NCBI GenBank assembly: GCA_963575745.1
Contig: CAUYUJ010018727.1
Span: 571,393-635,392, forward strand
DNA length: 64,000 nt
Direction of reading: 5' to 3'
Origin: Prorocentrum cordatum
Lineage: Eukaryota > Sar > Dinophyceae > Prorocentrales > Prorocentraceae
Within the stretch, counting starts at the first letter, position 1. The number at the start of each line of letters is the position of its first letter. Below, in pieces: positions 46,455 to 54,952 of this stretch. A program made the translations under genes and the position numbers. A model generated the notes under the pieces. It did not search any database. It was not told the DNA's origin and worked only from the letters and a program-made list of their open reading frames with translations.

Positions 46455-46547
46455 CATCAGCATCAGCATCAGCATCAGCATGATCAGCAGCATCATCGTC
46501 CTCCTCCTCCTCCTCCTCCTCATCATCATCATCATCATCATCATCAG

Positions 46548-46587
<40 letters not shown>

Positions 46588-46690
46588 GTCATCGTCATCG
46601 TCATCATTGTCATTGTCATTGTCATTGTCATCGTCATTGTCATCGTCATCGTCATCGTCATTGTCATCACCATCTTCATCACCATCATAC
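46455..46690. repeat. (CAT)/(CAG)/(CGT) trinucleotide array
   Basis: ATCATCATCATCATCATCAT passing into TCATCGTCATTGTCATTG. Confidence 0.9.
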
Positions 46691-46739
46691 CATAGACGAA
46701 GTAGTGACCCTGAGCGTGACTCTGGGAGAGGAGTTTTAG

Positions 46740-47290
46740 GAGGAGGAGGAGGAGGAGGAGGAGGAGGATGAGGAGGAGGAGGAGGAGGAGAGGAGTATAA
46801 GGAGAAGGAGAGAAGGAGGAGGGAGGATGATGAGGTGAGGAAGAGGGAGGAGGAGGAGGACGGAGGAGGACGGAGGAGGAGGAGGGAGGAGGAGGAGGAG
46901 GATGAGGAGGAGGAGAGGAGGAGGAGAAGGAGGAGATGGAATGAGGAGGAGGCGGAGGAGGAGGAGGAGGACGGGAGGGAGGAGGAGAGAGAGAGACGAG
47001 GAGGGAGGACGAGGAGGACGAGGAGGACGAGGAGTAGGAGGAGTAGGAGGAGGAGGAGGAGGAGAAATGGGAGGGAGGGGAGGAGGAGGCGGAGGAGGAG
47101 GAGGAGGAGGGAGGGAGGGAGAGGGGAGGAGAACACGGAGAGGGAGGGAGAGGAGAGGAGAGGAGGAGGAGGAGAGGAGCGGAGAGGGAGAGGAGGAGGA
47201 GAGGAGGAGGGGAAGGAGGAGGAGAAGGAGGTAAAAGGAGGAGGGGGAGGAGAGAAGAGGAGTAGGCGGAGGAGGAGGAGGGAGGTGTGA
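46740..47290. repeat. (GGA)n-rich purine tract, ~550 bp
   Basis: Interrupted GGA/GAGGGA/GACGAG repeats. Confidence 0.9.
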
Positions 47291-47519
47291 GTGGAAGGAG
47301 TCGGCGCGGCCAGAGTAACAACAAGAACCTCATCTTTTGGATATGGGGCAACGCAATCTCTCAGGGGGGCGCTCCTGCCGACGCGCCCAGCCGCGCAGAA
47401 ATAGGGCGCCATGCCGCAGCAGCTCCCGAAGCCCGAGCACCTGGCGCGGCGCAGCCGCGGCCGGAACAGGCGCCCCGCGAGGCCGTCCCGCCCGCCGTGC
47501 CTTCTGCGCGGTCGGGGCC
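47291..47519. other. Short GC-rich spacer, possible coding start
   Basis: MPQQLPKPEHLARRSRGRN from an ATG at 47411 shows GC third positions but runs into the (TCC)n tract. Confidence 0.25.
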
Positions 47520-47954
47520 CAGTTCAAACTCCTCCTCCTCGTCCTCCTCCTCCTTCTCCACCTCCTCCTCCTCCGCCTCCTCCTCCTCCTCCTCCTCCGC
47601 CTCCGCCACCGCCTCCGCCTCCGCATCCTCCTCCTCCGTCTCCTCCTCTTCCTTCTTTTCCTCCTCCTCCTCCTCCTCCTCCTCCGCCTCCGCCTCCTTA
47701 TCCTTCTCCTCTTCCTCCTCCTCCTCCTCCTGTTCCTCTGCCTCCGCCTTCGCCCCTGCCTCCGCCTCTTCCTCCGCCTCCTCCTCCTCCTCAGCCTCCC
47801 CCTCCTCCTCATCCTCCTCCTCCTCCTCCTCCTCCGCCTCTTCTTCTTCATTCTCTCCTCCTCCTCCTCCTCCTCCTCCGCCTCGCCTTCCTCCAACCCC
47901 TCCTCCTCCTCCTCCTCCTCCTCCTCCTCCTCCTCCTCCTCCTCCTCCTCTTCC
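47520..47954. repeat. (TCC)n-rich tract ending at the retrotransposon
   Basis: 430 bp of TCC/CTCCGCC triplets. The last 19 bases, CTCCTCCTCCTCCTCTTCC (47936-47954), recur at 54919-54937. Confidence 0.9.
47936..47954. repeat. Possible target-site duplication, left copy
   Basis: CTCCTCCTCCTCCTCTTCC is identical to 54919-54937. The last TCC overlaps the leader. Simple sequence weakens the case. Confidence 0.45.
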
Positions 47955-47973
47955 GTAGCCATTTTGGCTCAAG
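47952..47973 (+). other. Complete dinoflagellate spliced-leader sequence
   Basis: TCCGTAGCCATTTT followed directly by GGCTCAAG, the 22-nt leader trans-spliced onto dinoflagellate nuclear mRNAs. The next bases are GCTCATG, not the GT donor of an SL RNA gene, so this is a leader already joined to a transcript and copied into DNA. Confidence 0.9.
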
Positions 47974-48168
47974 GCTCATGCTTTTGCGGGCTGAGCCCGT
48001 ATTGGCATTCACGGATACCGCTAGTCCGCGGCAGTGCCAGAGCGCTTGCGCTCGACAGCTTTTCGCCTACACCGAGGGGTTGGGCTCCCTCATCAGTTTT
48101 GACGCCACGGCCAGGCTGCCCTCTGGTCCGTGGCACTCGCCGCTCGTCCCTGCGATATCGACGCCACG

Positions 48169-49208
48169 ATGGCCCCGACACGCAAGGAGAATGCTTCGCC
48201 ATGGTACTGCAAGTGGTGCAGGCACGACGTCACGAATCAGCCGTGGTTCAATGCCTCTACCCTTGTCTACTGTAAGAAGTGCGGCCTGCACAAGAGCAGC
48301 TGTTTCAAGGAAAACAAAGCAGCGTCGCAGCCCAGTGTCTCGGCCAAGCAGCAGTCGCTCGCGGCCAAGGTCAAGGAGCTCGAGGCGCAGCTCACCAAGC
48401 TCCGAGAGCATCCCCCTGGGCATGGGCCAGCGACTACGGGTACAGGTGCGAGCCCACCATGGGCTGCTGCGCCAGGGGATGCCGACACCGCCAAGCGGAA
48501 TCGGATCAAGATGCTGGATCAGTTGCTTCGTGTCACTACTGACCCTGCTGATGCTGATACTGTGGCCAAATGGCGCGAAGAGCGGGCGAGGTTGGACGCC
48601 GAGCTCTTTCAAGATAGGCCCATCGAGCATCAGGCCAGGTCTTTGGCGTCAAGACTGTCTTCCGCCCGATCGCGACATGCTACCATCCAGGCCACCCGTG
48701 ACGAGCAGCAGAAGAAGATTGACGAGCTCACCCGCGGCCTGGCCGACACGGACTCCAAGCTGCAAGAGGCCGCGGCGGAGGTCCTCCGCCTGGAGCAGCA
48801 GACCCGCACCGCCATGTCGCGAGTCCAGCCGCCCGAGGGCACGCAGCCACCGACGCTTGCGGACTTGCTGCCCACCTTCGCAGTCAGTGTGGAGCAGCTG
48901 GGCAAAGTTGCAACAGGCCTCGGTCTCGGCGCTGACATGGTCAAGGAGCTGCAAGCTATGGCAGACAGCTGCAGAGTTTGCCTCAGGCCAAGCCGCCTGA
49001 ACCTGCACCTGCTCATGCTGATGGTGATGAAGCTAGTGCTGAACCACCTGGCATCGAGATGTCTGAGCAGGAGTACCGTGAGACGCTGGGTGCAGCAGGG
49101 GTCCACGTCGAAGAGAGCGACACCCCCGACATCGTGCGCGAGAAGTTCAAGCGTCTTCAGCAGAGCTACTTGGACACTGTGGCCAAGAAGGCCAAGACGT
49201 CTGCGTGA
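48169..49208 (+). CDS. ORF1: zinc-finger/coiled-coil protein of the retrotransposon (frame-switched)
   Basis: The ATG at 48169 has A at -3. The N-terminus has Cys14, Cys17, Cys35, Cys38, His41 and Cys45 (WYCKWC...VYCKKCGLHKSSC), a zinc-ribbon-like motif likely to bind nucleic acid. Heptad-like stretches follow (AAKVKELEAQLTKL, then KKIDELTRGLADTDSKLQEA), predicting a coiled coil. At about 48970 sensible coding moves from frame 1 to frame 3 (a -1 shift), which continues as PEPAPAHADGDEASAEPPGI and ends DTVAKKAKTSA stop at 49208. The role by analogy is RNA binding and RNP formation. Only 16 bp separate its stop from the next ATG. Confidence 0.7.
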
Positions 49209-49251
49209 ACGTGCTCGGCCTGATATGCTGTTGCTTTGGTTCTTTGTCACC

Positions 49252-51027
49252 ATGGCTAGCTCTACATCAGCGCAACATGTTGAGAGTGCGCCTCCGTCAT
49301 CTTCGACAGCGGCGAGCATCTCGGGCAGGGGGGAGAGGGATTCAGCCCCTCATCGTCACACCTCCCTGCCCACAACGGCTTCCAGGGCCATGACCTCGGC
49401 TGGGACTACGGCGCCTACATTATTTCCCCCACTGGCCCGCTCCTCGGGGTGGGGGGCAGCTCCGACCTTGACTGCGGCTCCGCCTACGTCGGTTGCGCCT
49501 GCAGCTGGGTCTTTGGCGTCCACGGCATCACAGAGGGCTACTCCGCTTACGCCTACGCGGTTGGCCCCTGGCAGCACGCACTGCTCACCGACCTCACCTT
49601 CGGGGAGCGGCGGCAGAGGGCACCGACCGTCTTCGGACGGCACGCACCGCTCACCGCCCTTGCCCCCGGAGAATCCAGGCGGCAGAGGGCGCCGACTGCT
49701 AGGGGCGTCCTCGGGCCAGAGTGGCCCAGTGCGTACTACCTTGGGTGATGAGTATGACTTCTTTCAGGGCGTCGAGCCTGATATGGAAGCAGATCTGTGT
49801 GAAGGCGCATTTCAGGATGCGCCATCTTCGCCCCCACCTTCTTCCCGATTACGCTTCGAGAAATCATGTCAAGAACGCGCTGCACCTACCTCGCCTTTGC
49901 CGCCAGAGCGCACGGAGGCGAATGCGCAGCCAATGCATGCAGAATCTCAGCCGCAGCTCAAAGGCCTCATCACAACGGTGAACGCTACGAGCTACGGCCC
50001 TCTCTTTGACTTTTTGGCTACTTATCGGAGTATTATCTTGCTGGCACAGGAGTTGAGGATTACCGAACCTAGGCTTGGCGAGTTTCAGGCCAGGGCCTTG
50101 GACGCTGGATGGCATGGGCGATGGGCCCCGTCGCCCTCTACGGGTGACTCAGCTACGTCCAACTTTGGAGGGGTCGCTGTACTCGTGCCGACGTACATTA
50201 TGGTCACGGCCCCACCTGATGACGGGCACATTATCTATCCAGGACGAGCAGTCTGTGCACAGATTAATTGGGGAGTGGCTGGCGGTATCATAGTCGCCAG
50301 TGTTTATCTTGTCACGTCCATTGGCATCTCGGGCGAAAACATTGAGGTGTTGTGGGCCTTGGCCCAGAGAGTGGCAGCATGGAACTCACGGGGCCTCGAC
50401 TGGATCCTAGGCGGCGACCGGAACGCCGACATCGATGCGCCTAATGTTCGCAACTGGGTCGAGACCATGGCAGCCATCCACTATGTGCCCGACCAGCACA
50501 CCTGCATCACCGATGAGGGCAAGAGCACCATAGACTATGTTGTTGTCTGTGCCAATTTAGCGTCTCGCATCAAGGGCAAGCCAGAGGTCCAGTATGACTC
50601 CACGGTCGCGCCGCCGCCGCACTTCCCTGTGGAGCTGCAGCTCATGGGCGAGGATCGCCCCACGTGGTGCCGTGTCCCTGTGGAGCCGCGACCTTTTGCG
50701 GTGGTGCCGCCAGTTGGCTGTGCCAGGCATCCCTACCCGTGGCATATGCTCCAGACAGAGTTCCAACGGGTCAGCAGTGTCGACGACCTGAGCTCGCTCT
50801 GGGACTCTGTGCTGCGAGGGGTGGACTACGAGCTGGCAGGGCGTTACGACTGCGTGGGCGCCAAGGCCATGCAGTACATCGGACGCGAGGGGCCGCCGCA
50901 GTTCAAGTGGCAGCACCTGTCATGGCAGCCGCCGCGCAGGCGTACCTACAAGGAGCCGACTGTGCTGGCCTGGGCCACGGCGAAGCGCTGGCCCAGCACC
51001 TCGTGGCCGAGAAGAAGCGGCTTGTGA
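49252..51027 (+). CDS. ORF2 N-terminal part: AP-like endonuclease (EEP) domain
   Basis: Likely start ACCATGG at 49252. The early segment 49330-49745 reads better in frame 3 (GHDLGWDYGAYI, VGCACSWVFGVHGITEGYSA), suggesting compensating shifts. From 49745 frame 1 is convincing. The endonuclease spans about 49975-50650: VNATS, catalytic-type Glu in LLAQELRITEP, GGVAVLVP, ILGGDRNADID with the conserved Asp and Asn, TIDYVV, and a late His in PHFPVEL. It would nick target DNA to prime reverse transcription. Frame 1 loses sense at about 50970, where frame 3 takes over. The open frame itself runs to 51027. Confidence 0.75.
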   Translation: MASSTSAQHVESAPPSSSTAASISGRGERDSAPHRHTSLPTTASRAMTSAGTTAPTLFPPLARSSGWGAAPTLTAAPPTSVAPAAGSLASTASQRATPLTPTRLAPGSTHCSPTSPSGSGGRGHRPSSDGTHRSPPLPPENPGGRGRRLLGASSGQSGPVRTTLGDEYDFFQGVEPDMEADLCEGAFQDAPSSPPPSSRLRFEKSCQERAAPTSPLPPERTEANAQPMHAESQPQLKGLITTVNATSYGPLFDFLATYRSIILLAQELRITEPRLGEFQARALDAGWHGRWAPSPSTGDSATSNFGGVAVLVPTYIMVTAPPDDGHIIYPGRAVCAQINWGVAGGIIVASVYLVTSIGISGENIEVLWALAQRVAAWNSRGLDWILGGDRNADIDAPNVRNWVETMAAIHYVPDQHTCITDEGKSTIDYVVVCANLASRIKGKPEVQYDSTVAPPPHFPVELQLMGEDRPTWCRVPVEPRPFAVVPPVGCARHPYPWHMLQTEFQRVSSVDDLSSLWDSVLRGVDYELAGRYDCVGAKAMQYIGREGPPQFKWQHLSWQPPRRRTYKEPTVLAWATAKRWPSTSWPRRSGL

Positions 51028-54000
51028 GGTACATCGAGCGCCTCAAGCTGTGTGCCGCCGTTTGCGCCATCACGCCGCTGCAGTACACCAAGGTCGTCGT
51101 GGCCTTCAATGAAGTGGCTGCCTTTTATGGACGTGTGGCTCGGTCAGTGCAGGTGTTGTGTGTTTTGGATGTTGCCTTCGCAGGTTTCTTTCGGCGAGGG
51201 CTGACTGGCTTGGTCGAGGCTGACTTTGAGGACGTAGCCAATGCCATCATTGCCAGAGCTGATTCTCATTTGAGAACGGCGCAAAGAGCGTCGGAGAGGG
51301 CTTGGCGGCAGTGGGCCAAAGAAGCCTTCTTGGGAGGAGCATCTCGGGCGCATTCGTCCTCCAAGGTTCGGGCTCGACAGGAGGTGCTCGCCTACTCCCC
51401 TGACGCTCAGCCATACCAGATGGCCGACCGTACGCTCGACAAGTGGAGGGACGTTTGGACGTACCACGGTGCATGCCCTCTGCCGCTGCCTGTCGGTCAT
51501 GCTCAGTGGCCTTTGCTTCCGCCCTTGTCTGCATCGCAGGTGCGTGGAGCCACCAGAAGCTTTCCATTGAAGACGGCCCCGGGCCAGGCGAGGATCGCGC
51601 CACGCACGCTCGATGTGCTGTCCGACCAGGCCTTGCAGAGCCTGGCTGACATGTTCATGCAGTTTGAGAGTTGGCTGGCCTGGCCTACGGACAGGCTCTA
51701 CAGCGAGCTTGTTCGCCTGCCCAAGCCTGACGGGGACACTAGGTTGATCGTCCTCAGCCATACTTTCGTCAGGTTGTGGGGAAAGCTTCGTCGGCCGCTT
51801 TCATCGGAGTGGCAAGAGGCTCACAGTTGCGAACATATGTGGGGGCCCAGGGCTGGGCAGACTTCGACCGATTCAGCCTTCGACCACAACCTGAGCCAGG
51901 AGATAGGAGAACTTTTAGGTGAGCACACATGCACCATTCTCTTGGACATGACCAAGTGCTTCGATATGGTCAGTCACAGTGCACTTCTCCGAGAAGCCAG
52001 AGAGCTCGGGTACCCGCTGAGGCTCCTGTGGTTGCTCCTGGGCTCCTACCGCCAGCCGAGAAGGATCAAGTGTTGTGGGTCCGTATCCAGGCCCTTGGTG
52101 GCCCATCAGGGTATTCTTGCGGGCTGCACGCACGCCACGTATCTTTTATATCTCCTCACGTACCGAGCGGTCCAGCGCACGGCCAGTATTGCACCTACTA
52201 TCACGCCACGCACGCTCATGGACGATGTGGGCCTGCAGTACGTGTCGCCCGTATTGAGGGAGGTGTCCAACCTGGCCCGAGCGGCCAAGGCGCGCACGGC
52301 TGATGCAGGAGATCTCGGGATGGCCCTGAAGCCGCCGAAGTCTGGATGTATCCCTGGGACCCAAAAGGTTTGGGGGCAGCTCAAGAGGCACCTGGGAACC
52401 TTGAAGATACCGTACAGGGCCCACATGAGGAATCTGGGACACGAGCTCACAGGACCTCGAGTTCTTCGGCATATGGAGAAGCGTAGGCTGGTGCAGTTTC
52501 GTGAGCGCAAGCATCGTTTTCGCATGTTGAAGTCCGCCGTGGGGCGGAGTGCTACCAGCCTGTGGCGCACGGGCGCCCTTCCATCAGTGGCGCATGGCGG
52601 TGCAGTTGCTGGAGTTAGTGACAGCGCCCTTCGTGAGTTGCGACATTGTGCTGCGGTCCTAAATGGTGCTCCAGGTAAGACGATGGTTGGGGTAACAGCG
52701 TATCTTATATCTCATCGGGATGAATGTTATGACCCCATATATAACGCCACCACGGACATTGTGCTCAAATACGCTTCCTGGATCTGGGACGGGCGTGTGC
52801 AACCTAGCAGACTTCAGGAGGCTTGGGTATGTCTGGGTGCTAAGTTTGAGAGTTCACCTTCCTGGTCTAAGGCGCGAGGGCCCCTCGGGGCCACTTGGCT
52901 TACTTTGAGGCGCATCTCCTGGACTATGTCGTCAGAGCACATCCTGGTCGACGATTTGGGAAATAGTTTTGGCTTATATCGTATGTGTCCAGCAGACCTG
53001 CGAGTGTTCCTGCATCAGGGCATCCAGCGCTGGCAGCACCATAGGTTGCAGCAGCATTTTTACACCGAGCAGGCGGATGTGTGGCATCGTGCGCTACGCC
53101 ACTCGCTCGCCAAGGTAAAGTGTCACAGGCGCCTCGGAGCGCTGCAGGCTTTGTGGGCTGACAATCTTCCCATCCCACCGCGTCGGGACATGAAGCACGG
53201 GAGGCCCATCAGGCCTTGTCAGGCCTGTGGCAAGGCTATCGACTCCTGTTGGGGTCATATATTTTACGACTGCCCGCCGCTCCTCGAAGGGGACCCCGAC
53301 CAGGAATATTATGAGTTTCCAGAACAGTTTCAGGAGGTTCGAGACATGCTTCAGGCGTCTGGGCAGCTGCTGGGGTGCACCGACTGGGACCAGAGATACC
53401 TGGTCTATGGGGTTCCTGAGCCTGTCGCTGTGCCGCACTACACTACGGTCTCCAATGAGGTTTTTGAGTGGGGAGATGTCTCAGGCTCCTGGGGGCCTAC
53501 ATCCTATACTGATGGTTCGGGGTTCTCGGCCAGCATTCCTGAAGTACGTAGGTGTGGTTGGTCGGTCTGCCAGTTGGACCCCGTCACGTGGCTCCCCGCC
53601 AGAGCTGTATATGGGCCCTTGCCCTACTATGTGCAGACGGTAGGCCGTGCTGAGCGCTATGCCATCAAGATGGGACTTCAGAAGCATCCAGGGCATGAGG
53701 CTTTCATTTCGGATCTGAAATCGCTCGTGGAGGAGGGCACGTCCTGGGACCAGAAGCTCGAGTTTGGCAAAGCGAAGCACGCCCGAGTCTGGAGAGACAT
53801 TTTTTCGGCTGCCAGAGCACGCGATCCACGTCTGCCACCAGTGCGGTTTCAGTGGACTCCAGCTCACAGGAAGCTGGAGGACATCATCGAGTCGGCCACG
53901 CCAGACGAGCTGGAGGCCTTCGTCGGCAATGCCTGGGCCGACTTCTTCGCGAAGTGCGGCAGCGCTGCACACATGGTGTCTAAAACAATGGCTGACAGTT

Positions 54001-54764
54001 TGGCCGCTGCGTTGAAGCAGCACAAGCAGGTCTTGCACTATGTGTCTTGGGCGGCTTTCCAGGTGGTTCAGTTTCGGAAGTGGGGAACGGATCCTATCGT
54101 GGAGCGGGGCCCAGAGCTTGCCCAGGTGCCCAAGCGTGTGGTCTTCGAGAGGCCCCAGGACCACGAGTTGCTTTTCTGCCAGAGGTTGTCTGAGTATCGG
54201 TGTCGACGGTGCAATCGAGTCGCTCGAAGTGCGAGTACCCTCCATACTCTTCGCTCGGGAGCTGATCGGGCGTGTGCTCCCTCGCCTCTGGTCCAGAGCG
54301 TTGCCGAGGACTTCTTCCAGCGGAGTTCTGAGGCGTGGCTTAGTGTTTCGGACTCTAGGGTCACGGCTGCCATCGAGGCGGCCGATAGGATTTTGGGGTC
54401 CACGTCTGGGCCTCTGGAGGCCTCCTCGGGGCTTGGCGCGGTCCCTCCTCAGCCGCTGGAGCAGGTGAATGCTGCCAGTGGCTCGGCCGACGCTCCCCAA
54501 CCAGTGCTTGCCGAATTCGCTGAATTGGGGCATGACGTTTTCTGTGTTAATTCCGTTTATTGCTGCCGCAAGTGCGGGGGCAATTTCAACGGGTCCGAGT
54601 CCTTCAGGTCCGCCCGCAAGCTGCGGGCGTTGTGCCAAGGGTTTTCGGAGAATCCAAAGACACGGGTGAACCAGCACACGGCGATCGACAGAATCACCCG
54701 TGGCTTGGAGCCCCGCCAGCGCGGGGCAGGTGCGGCGCGTTCTGGCCCGAACCCTGCCCCCTAG
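50980..54764 (+). CDS. ORF2 C-terminal part: reverse transcriptase, RNase H and zinc motifs
   Basis: Frame 3 is open from 50664, but sensible sequence begins about 50980 (EKKRLVRYIERLKLC). RT: FPLKTAPGQA, RLPKPDGDTRLIVL, motif A LLDMTKCFDMVSH (51940), motif B QGILAGCTHATYLL, and motif C LMDDVG (52216) with both Asp kept and Tyr replaced. A zinc-type CxxC-H-C motif follows at 53217-53273 (CQACGK...WGHIFYDC). RNase H: DGSG (Asp at 53511), AERYA (Glu 53652), SDLK (Asp 53712), WTPAHRK, and NAWADFF (Asp 53940). After it come CRRCNRVA and CVNSVYCCRKCGGNF then RALCQGF, two more Cys motifs outside the usual LINE plan. Stop TAG at 54764. Catalytic residues are intact. Confidence 0.85.
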
Positions 54765-54918
54765 TGTTGCTCTTTGGACCCTGGGAGGTTTTAGGGTGTG
54801 GTTTTCCTGAGGCGCCCCACCCTCTCCCAGGCTTCCGCCTTTCCGCCACCCCTGTGGCTTTCAGGTCTCACACGCGGTTGGTGTTCGTCACTCGGACGCC
54901 TCTCCTGCGGCTCGCTCG
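54765..54918 (+). other. Presumed 3' UTR of the retrotransposon
   Basis: 154 bp between the ORF2 stop and the (TCC)n tract, including GGTTTTAGGGTGTGG. No A-rich tail. Confidence 0.5.
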
Positions 54919-54952
54919 CTCCTCCTCCTCCTCTTCCTCCTCCTCCTCCTCC
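54919..54952. repeat. (TCC)n tract / possible right target-site duplication
   Basis: CTCCTCCTCCTCCTCTTCC (54919-54937) equals the left copy. Further TCC and a run of C follow. Confidence 0.6.

Follow-up and report, generated by a model that had tools for sequence, protein, structure and literature searches.

The window analysed here, a 64-kb stretch of Prorocentrum cordatum DNA, contains a LINE of about 6.97 kb that is inserted in a (TCC)n repeat and runs on the + strand from position 47952 to about 54919. Its first 22 bases, TCCGTAGCCATTTTGGCTCAAG (47952–47973, +), are the complete dinoflagellate spliced leader, with 0 mismatches, and its first base, a T, is the 5' terminus of the element. 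Directly upstream is a (TCC)n tract (47901–47951, +), part of a wider TCC-rich stretch that starts near 47529, and the far side of the same tract follows the element at 54920–54952 (+). The original observation that the leader lies exactly at the 5' edge, directly after (TCC)n, is borne out: 22 of 22 bases match, and 30 copies of the element share sequence up to the leader. No other site in the window matches the 21-mer CCGTAGCCATTTTGGCTCAAG when as many as 3 mismatches are allowed (0.01 expected in shuffles), or the 22-mer when as many as 5 are. Genome-wide, the exact leader 21-mer occurs 14218 times (7201 times on one strand, 7017 on the other), and the reversed pattern, used as a control, 0 times; a chance match is thereby ruled out. 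Nor is this a gene for the spliced-leader RNA, since the leader is followed by GCTC rather than by a GT splice donor.

Beyond the leader lies a 5'UTR (47974–48168, +), in which substitutions shared between copies show no codon-position bias (6, 8, 10), unlike the next 1045 bases, where such a bias is present. The first reading frame, ORF1, opens with an ATG at 48169–48171, 195 bases after the leader; it had been expected 196 bp past it, implying 48168–48171. The interval 47952–48171, put forward as the LINE copy, thus has the right start, but comprises leader and 5'UTR only, the element reaching ~54919. The ORF1 frame (48169–51027, +, from the ORF scan and copy comparison) has a CxxC-rich start and a coiled-coil-like part, and continues into the endonuclease domain. 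This read-on is probably due to small indels of the window copy relative to most other copies; ORF1 measures 345–351 aa in 24 of the 28 copies checked (2 of 30 were missed by the anchor used). In ORF1, 46 of 65 and 54 of 86 shared substitutions fall on the third codon position, and the bias is absent further on (43, 40, 46).

An AP-type endonuclease domain at 50008–50565 (+) matches Pfam Exo_endo_phos with E 2.1e-4 and 21.5 bits, the curated cut-off being 24.5, and the reverse transcriptase frame of 1366 aa at 50664–54764 (+) contains RVT_1 at 51720–52235 with E 1.8e-6 and 28.2 bits, where the cut-off is 29.6. While the window copy stays slightly below both Pfam cut-offs, three other leader-headed elements (L014, L018 and L020) lie above both. 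Proteins of P. cordatum and of environmental origin align with the reverse transcriptase frame; two of these carry a Pfam endonuclease annotation, and proteins from P. cordatum match short parts of the frame at 94–95% identity. With reverse transcriptase and endonuclease both present, the element is a non-LTR retrotransposon (LINE) of the AP endonuclease type. The 3'UTR and 3' end (54765–54919, +) are placed, to within ~4 bases, by the point where other copies stop matching and by the 3' flanks of three copies. In the search with the 3' end, the best 40 of 329 candidates were scored; these are the window copy and 39 others, and the latter all cease to match at query positions 717–767, on the edge of the 3' (TCC)n tract or slightly beyond it. 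The two ends of the window element differ by eye. The fold of the whole 5' end is ordinary (z −1.67, with 10 of 200 shuffles as low), and a known 5' ribozyme was set aside as improbable, as Rfam gave nothing for 47900–48400 beyond a match at chance level (E 4.6); this comparison would miss undescribed ribozymes.

Other copies of the family were sought in the P. cordatum genome (4.13 Gb, 21875 contigs) by means of 600 bases of the element body alone, leader excluded. The best 40 of 778 candidates were scored, with 40 full matches and one partial, and 30 of these 40 copies were read at sequence level. Although found by their bodies alone, all 30 carry the leader at the same position. It is an exact 22-mer in 26 of them and has at most one change in 29, the remaining copy (L046) having 6 mismatches within its first 9 bases. 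In one copy (L051) the first 57 bases are tandemly duplicated, with a full leader outermost. For 19 of the 40 scored 5' ends, among them that of the window copy, a matching 3' end lies at a start-to-start distance of 6217–6245 bp, indicating 19 full-length copies of ~6.97 kb. The expectation that many copies begin with the leader at an identical position is therefore met in 30 of 30 copies read, and the opposite outcome, leaders absent from every other copy, is excluded.

The upstream flank is TCC-rich on the sense strand in 27 of the 30 copies, and GGA-rich in none. Compared all against all, the upstream flanks have in common only TCC and short dispersed stretches (35–181 bases), with the exception of one pair: the window copy and L033 share a flank of ~1.3 kb up to the leader (window 46474–47951), identical in 234 of 234 bases of its unique part. 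Between the two bodies there are 31 differences in 2012 bases, and downstream of the element L033 has a 3' flank other than that of the window copy. A homologous upstream extension of non-leader sequence, which would have told against a leader at the element's edge, was hence encountered once among the 29 other copies. This single case, with its unmatched 3' flank, suggests that a locus was duplicated or an insertion site shared; the pair may have arisen by duplication of the locus, by two insertions at one site, or by a mis-join within the TCC tract. As the two junctions may not be independent, they were counted as one flank, giving 29 independent flanks among the 30. Segmental duplication was rejected as a general cause, as this is the one pair among the 30 copies to share its flank up to the leader.

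Three family copies (L041, L054 and L059) were picked for having flanks other than plain TCC, and their 3' flanks were compared. All three have target-site duplications abutting the leader, with longest exact matches of 21 bp (L041), 16 bp (L054) and 14 bp (L059, which has two extra G before the leader). A LINE of another family (L015) likewise has a 14-bp target-site duplication ending at the leader, its second copy lying 6592 bp downstream. The target-site duplications of a LINE are thus found in three family copies and in L015; for the window copy, which lies within (TCC)n, none can be defined. In L041 the duplication ends exactly before the first T of the leader. The T at 47952 is for this reason a base of the element and not just of the TCC tract, and reverse transcription reached the first base of the leader. 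A (TCC)n tract is absent on both sides of L041 and L054, so that the tract is target DNA; its interpretation as a tail of the element was rejected. The two extra G of L059/L102, between target-site duplication and leader, are what cap copying might give. As a general mark of the cap, extra G were rejected: they occur in L059 only, and no general excess of G is seen by eye in the sampled sites described next.

Leaders elsewhere in the genome were sampled as the first 60 of 100 listed places obtained by the exact leader pattern. The sequence upstream is TCC in 28 of these, GGA in 12 and other in 20. A T immediately precedes CCGTAG in 55 of the 60 sites, including 19 of the 20 in the last class, and in 2145 of the genome's leaders CCTCCT directly precedes CCGTAG. 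A length of 7 kb was examined at each of the first 20 sites by contig order (18 lie on a single contig), and 13 of the 20 head a LINE, with endonuclease or reverse transcriptase sequence downstream. Both strands were searched for L010, L012, L015, L019, L022, L027 and L028, with matches in sense only; for L014, L016, L018, L020 and L026 only sense frames were given to Pfam; and L024 has a weak Pfam match backed by similarity to L020. At the other seven sites (L011, L013, L017, L021, L023, L025 and L029) Pfam found no LINE domain in the one or two frames submitted for each. In a small comparison among themselves, the leader-headed LINEs fall in two reverse transcriptase groups without links at E 1e-4.

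Three further families were followed with queries composed of body and flank, the best 40 candidates being scored for each. The L015 query, the only one with a non-repeat flank, offered 99 flank bases ahead of a leader that starts at position 100. Of the 39 other copies, 28 start at query positions 95–101 and none reaches more than 5 bases into the flank; the remaining 11 miss the leader start (one starts at 120, one at 160, and nine have no 5' match). The L019 family reaches the leader in 34 of 39 copies, 33 of them with (GGA)n upstream, and has no match at the leader start in 5 of 39. In the L028 family, leader and TCC tract are included in 39 of 39 copies. The leader thus heads many LINE families and is present in most mapped copies of these three, its identity in the individual copies being deduced from alignment ends. 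The window copy is not a special case, since the leader regularly heads copies and many LINE families.

Several other features of the leader sites are worth recording. Four leader-headed sequences (L019, L024, L073 and L075) lie in (GGA)n, which is the window family's target read on the other strand, while (AT)n, (CAT)n or (ACAGAC)n-like repeats harbour others. As the L019 family lies behind (GGA)n, a pyrimidine tract in the target was rejected as a general need. (TCC)n is a target preference of the window family, as is (GGA)n of the L019 family, and it is not required for leader addition in general. Three near-identical leader-headed units with the same upstream sequence lie within ~8.3 kb of contig C39 (L095, L096 and L097); they are a local array and not separate insertions. 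An AT-rich IMG/VR contig classed as viral (L001) carries two exact leaders on the − strand, at 2746–2766 and 2893–2913, 147 bases apart; a scan of viral contigs for relatives gave 23 pattern matches and no relative.

A small hairpin, CCGC-TAGTCC-GCGG, is found in the 5'UTR of the window element (48018–48031, +), and is common to other leader-headed sequences. The motif occurs ~23–40 bases past the leader in ten sequences, hand-picked by eye (the window copy, L010, L014, L016, L018, L062, L066, L068, L072 and L081). Its stem varies with compensatory changes (CCGC/GCGG, CCTC/GAGG, CCCT/AGGG, CCCC/GGGG) around a TRGTCC-like loop; in the ten, 40 of 40 cells are paired and 7 are changed on both sides, and none of 500 shuffles reached this covariation score. 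For five of the ten, a LINE is known to follow, and these belong to both reverse transcriptase groups (the window copy and L010; L014, L016 and L018). This distribution points to an exchange of 5' modules or to convergence. The distance from the leader to the hairpin region differs among relatives.

The leader is immediately followed by an ATG in 10 of the 60 sampled sites. Such an ATG opens a long frame in L028 (at least 2226 aa) and in L014 (at least 1864 aa), so that some LINEs may have no 5'UTR other than the leader. That the leader-adjacent ATG is a true start is not claimed, because GC-rich frames stay open by chance. In the window family the constrained frame is ORF1 at +195 and not one from a leader-adjacent ATG.

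Leaders also occur in tandem. Perfect tandems (leader followed by CCATTTTGGCTCAAG) number 1202 in the genome, compared with 14218 leaders in all, and account for 6 of the 60 sampled sites (L018, L013, L023, L025, L080 and L098). In L018 the perfect tandem stands ahead of a LINE, so that copies with two leaders, which had been anticipated, do exist. A second leader-like stretch, with at least 11 of 15 bases matching, is present in 12 of the 60 sites, compared with ~0.06 in shuffles. In the group formed by L015, L027 and L090 the inner leader is degenerate (CTGTTTTGGCACGAG, TCCGGAGCCGTTTTGGCACAG and TCCGTAGCCCTTTCGGGTCAG) while the outer one is canonical, a canonical outer leader being the sampling condition for sites found by the exact pattern. 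The inner leader thus appears to behave as inherited sequence. Tandems and decayed inner leaders together favour re-addition by trans-splicing over plain inheritance, and the 1202 perfect tandems are as expected if an AG inside an existing DNA-encoded leader took a new leader. The original view of the leader as part of the mobile unit stands insofar as it is the 5' terminus of the copied RNA. It is better called renewed than inherited, because inner leaders decay while the outer one stays canonical. Within the window family, no clear inner relict was seen in the 30 copies read. Its 21 leader columns show 0 shared changes (L046 and L051 omitted), compared with 66 of 579 body columns (chance ~0.08), and 2 columns with a shared change when those two copies are kept; as a sign of renewal, this invariance is suggestive at most.

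Most likely, these elements have a trans-spliced RNA intermediate, which is reverse-transcribed as far as base 1 of the leader. We put at roughly 0.85 the probability that the LINE RNA is trans-spliced like a host mRNA and then reverse-transcribed to the first leader base, so that 5'-complete copies begin with the leader. In this scheme, the capped leader of 22 nt would be joined to a transcript spanning a genomic copy, close to or exactly where the element body begins. Starting from the 3' end of this RNA, and primed at the nicked target, the reverse transcriptase of the element would then copy it as far as the first base of the leader. The new copy would come to sit between target-site duplications, in the window family mostly within (TCC)n and in one orientation. 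The proposal made at the outset, that the leader implies a trans-spliced RNA copied to its end, is upheld in that the leader marks the 5' terminus of the copied RNA (30 of 30 copies; the duplication of L041), trans-splicing itself being deduced from DNA. The source of the transcript (promoter or read-through), its cap and the acceptor AG in the window family are likewise presumed. The tandem cases support a role of the DNA-encoded leader as acceptor in the following round of trans-splicing, and the same would apply to other copies by extension.

This last point could be taken further, although only tentatively, towards the capped, translatable RNA from any insertion site that was suggested at the outset. 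The DNA leader would then be a portable, self-renewing acceptor, through which promoterless read-through at any site yields a capped, full-length RNA, and the LINE would live on the trans-splicing of its host. Either the internal AG of the DNA leader (TCCGTAG) or the terminal one (CTCAAG) would accept the new leader, and insertion into sense-strand (TCC)n would also place a pyrimidine tract before it.

It is also possible, though less likely than not, that the leader is nothing but a scar: a few source copies with a true upstream acceptor would give rise to leader-headed progeny that are inert. Single-base changes of the leader are indeed private, one each in L033, L037 and L038, and the (GGA)n-targeted families have no pyrimidine tract before the leader, both as this would have it. 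However, the best explanation of the 1202 perfect tandems and L018 is trans-splicing, at the leader's internal AG, of a transcript from a leader-headed copy, followed by renewed copying, and no leaderless source copy is present among the 30 of 40 copies read.

An unlikely alternative is a single capture of the leader, which would since have been passed on as an ordinary 5' end, a promoter in element or flank starting transcription at its first base with no later trans-splicing. The junction at the same base in 30 of 30 copies read and the lack of a clear inner relict in the window family would agree with this, and trypanosomatid LINEs, in the relevant part of one account, do use a 5' promoter and an unspliced RNA (PMC8190864). 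A single capture is difficult to reconcile with leaders at the head of LINEs from two groups lacking similarity at E 1e-4 in the small comparison made, with a leader that joins a common hairpin region at differing distances in relatives, and with inner leaders that are decayed where outer ones are not, perfect tandems existing besides. Chance, contamination or an assembly artefact is very improbable and is refuted for the family as a whole: although the flank that the window copy has in common with L033 would allow a mis-join inside the TCC tract, the match counts given above and the target-site duplications around leader-headed copies outside plain TCC stand against it.

LINEs must restore a transcribable and translatable 5' end to each cDNA copy. 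If trans-splicing supplies that end, the 22-base tag marks 5'-complete copies, tandem leaders count rounds of copying, and retroposition becomes traceable to an RNA class. Perfect tandem leaders could then also date rounds of retroposition, and leader-headed starts make the LINE life cycle unusually easy to trace. Genomic leaders tallied as retrogenes may include retrotransposons. According to the pertinent passages of one report, the type of element behind dinoflagellate retroposition is unknown, LTR elements being favoured (PMC6050394). With 13 of 20 sampled leader sites heading LINEs, these are strong candidates for its mediators.

No description of leader-headed LINE families in dinoflagellates was found in the open-access papers searched, a scope outside which most subscription papers fall. 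DinoSL relicts on dinoflagellate retrogenes were reportedly described by Slamovits and Keeling in 2008, a work cited in PMC6050394. Leader relicts of this kind are well known, judging from the portions concerned of three reports (PMC6050394, PMC12014239, PMC7245778). As they are presented there, DinoSL retrogenes resemble the present elements in having a DNA leader at the 5' end of a reinserted RNA and tandem 15-nt relicts after repeated rounds. The window element, too, is a retroposed copy whose 5' end is a leader encoded in DNA, but it is not a copy of a cellular gene, its frames encoding LINE domains. DinoSL retrogenes are cellular genes, whereas here the leader heads retrotransposons and is the regular 5' end of many families. 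A leader within 500 bp of 6 of 26 polymerase copies of endogenous dinoRNAV has been taken as a mark of retroposition, according to the relevant section of that study (PMC10235124); those elements are copied viral genes, in contrast to the retrotransposons described here. For two Symbiodinium genomes, 496 and 244 putative leaders have been counted with a different search method (PMC8045281), as against the 14218 exact 21-mers of P. cordatum.

Outside the dinoflagellates, six genome-encoded SL exons merged to transposable elements are given for Schistosoma mansoni, and in the section concerned the authors suggest elements that were trans-spliced and retro-transcribed, while allowing for chimeric assembly (PMC5832876). 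As set out in that section, these fusions are a handful of cases without boundaries, target-site duplications or copy families, all of which are present here. In Hydra, 29.7–30.9% of the Iso-Seq reads of transposable elements carry a spliced leader (PMC12220107); the evidence in the relevant part of that report is at the RNA level only, without DNA copies that begin with the leader. The trypanosomatid LINEs L1Tc and ingi share with the elements of P. cordatum a fixed short 5' module and a host with polycistronic transcription and spliced-leader trans-splicing, as far as the pertinent passages of one account go (PMC8190864). Their Pr77, by the same account, is a promoter combined with an HDV-like ribozyme and gives an unspliced RNA, whereas in the LINEs described here the 5' module is the leader.
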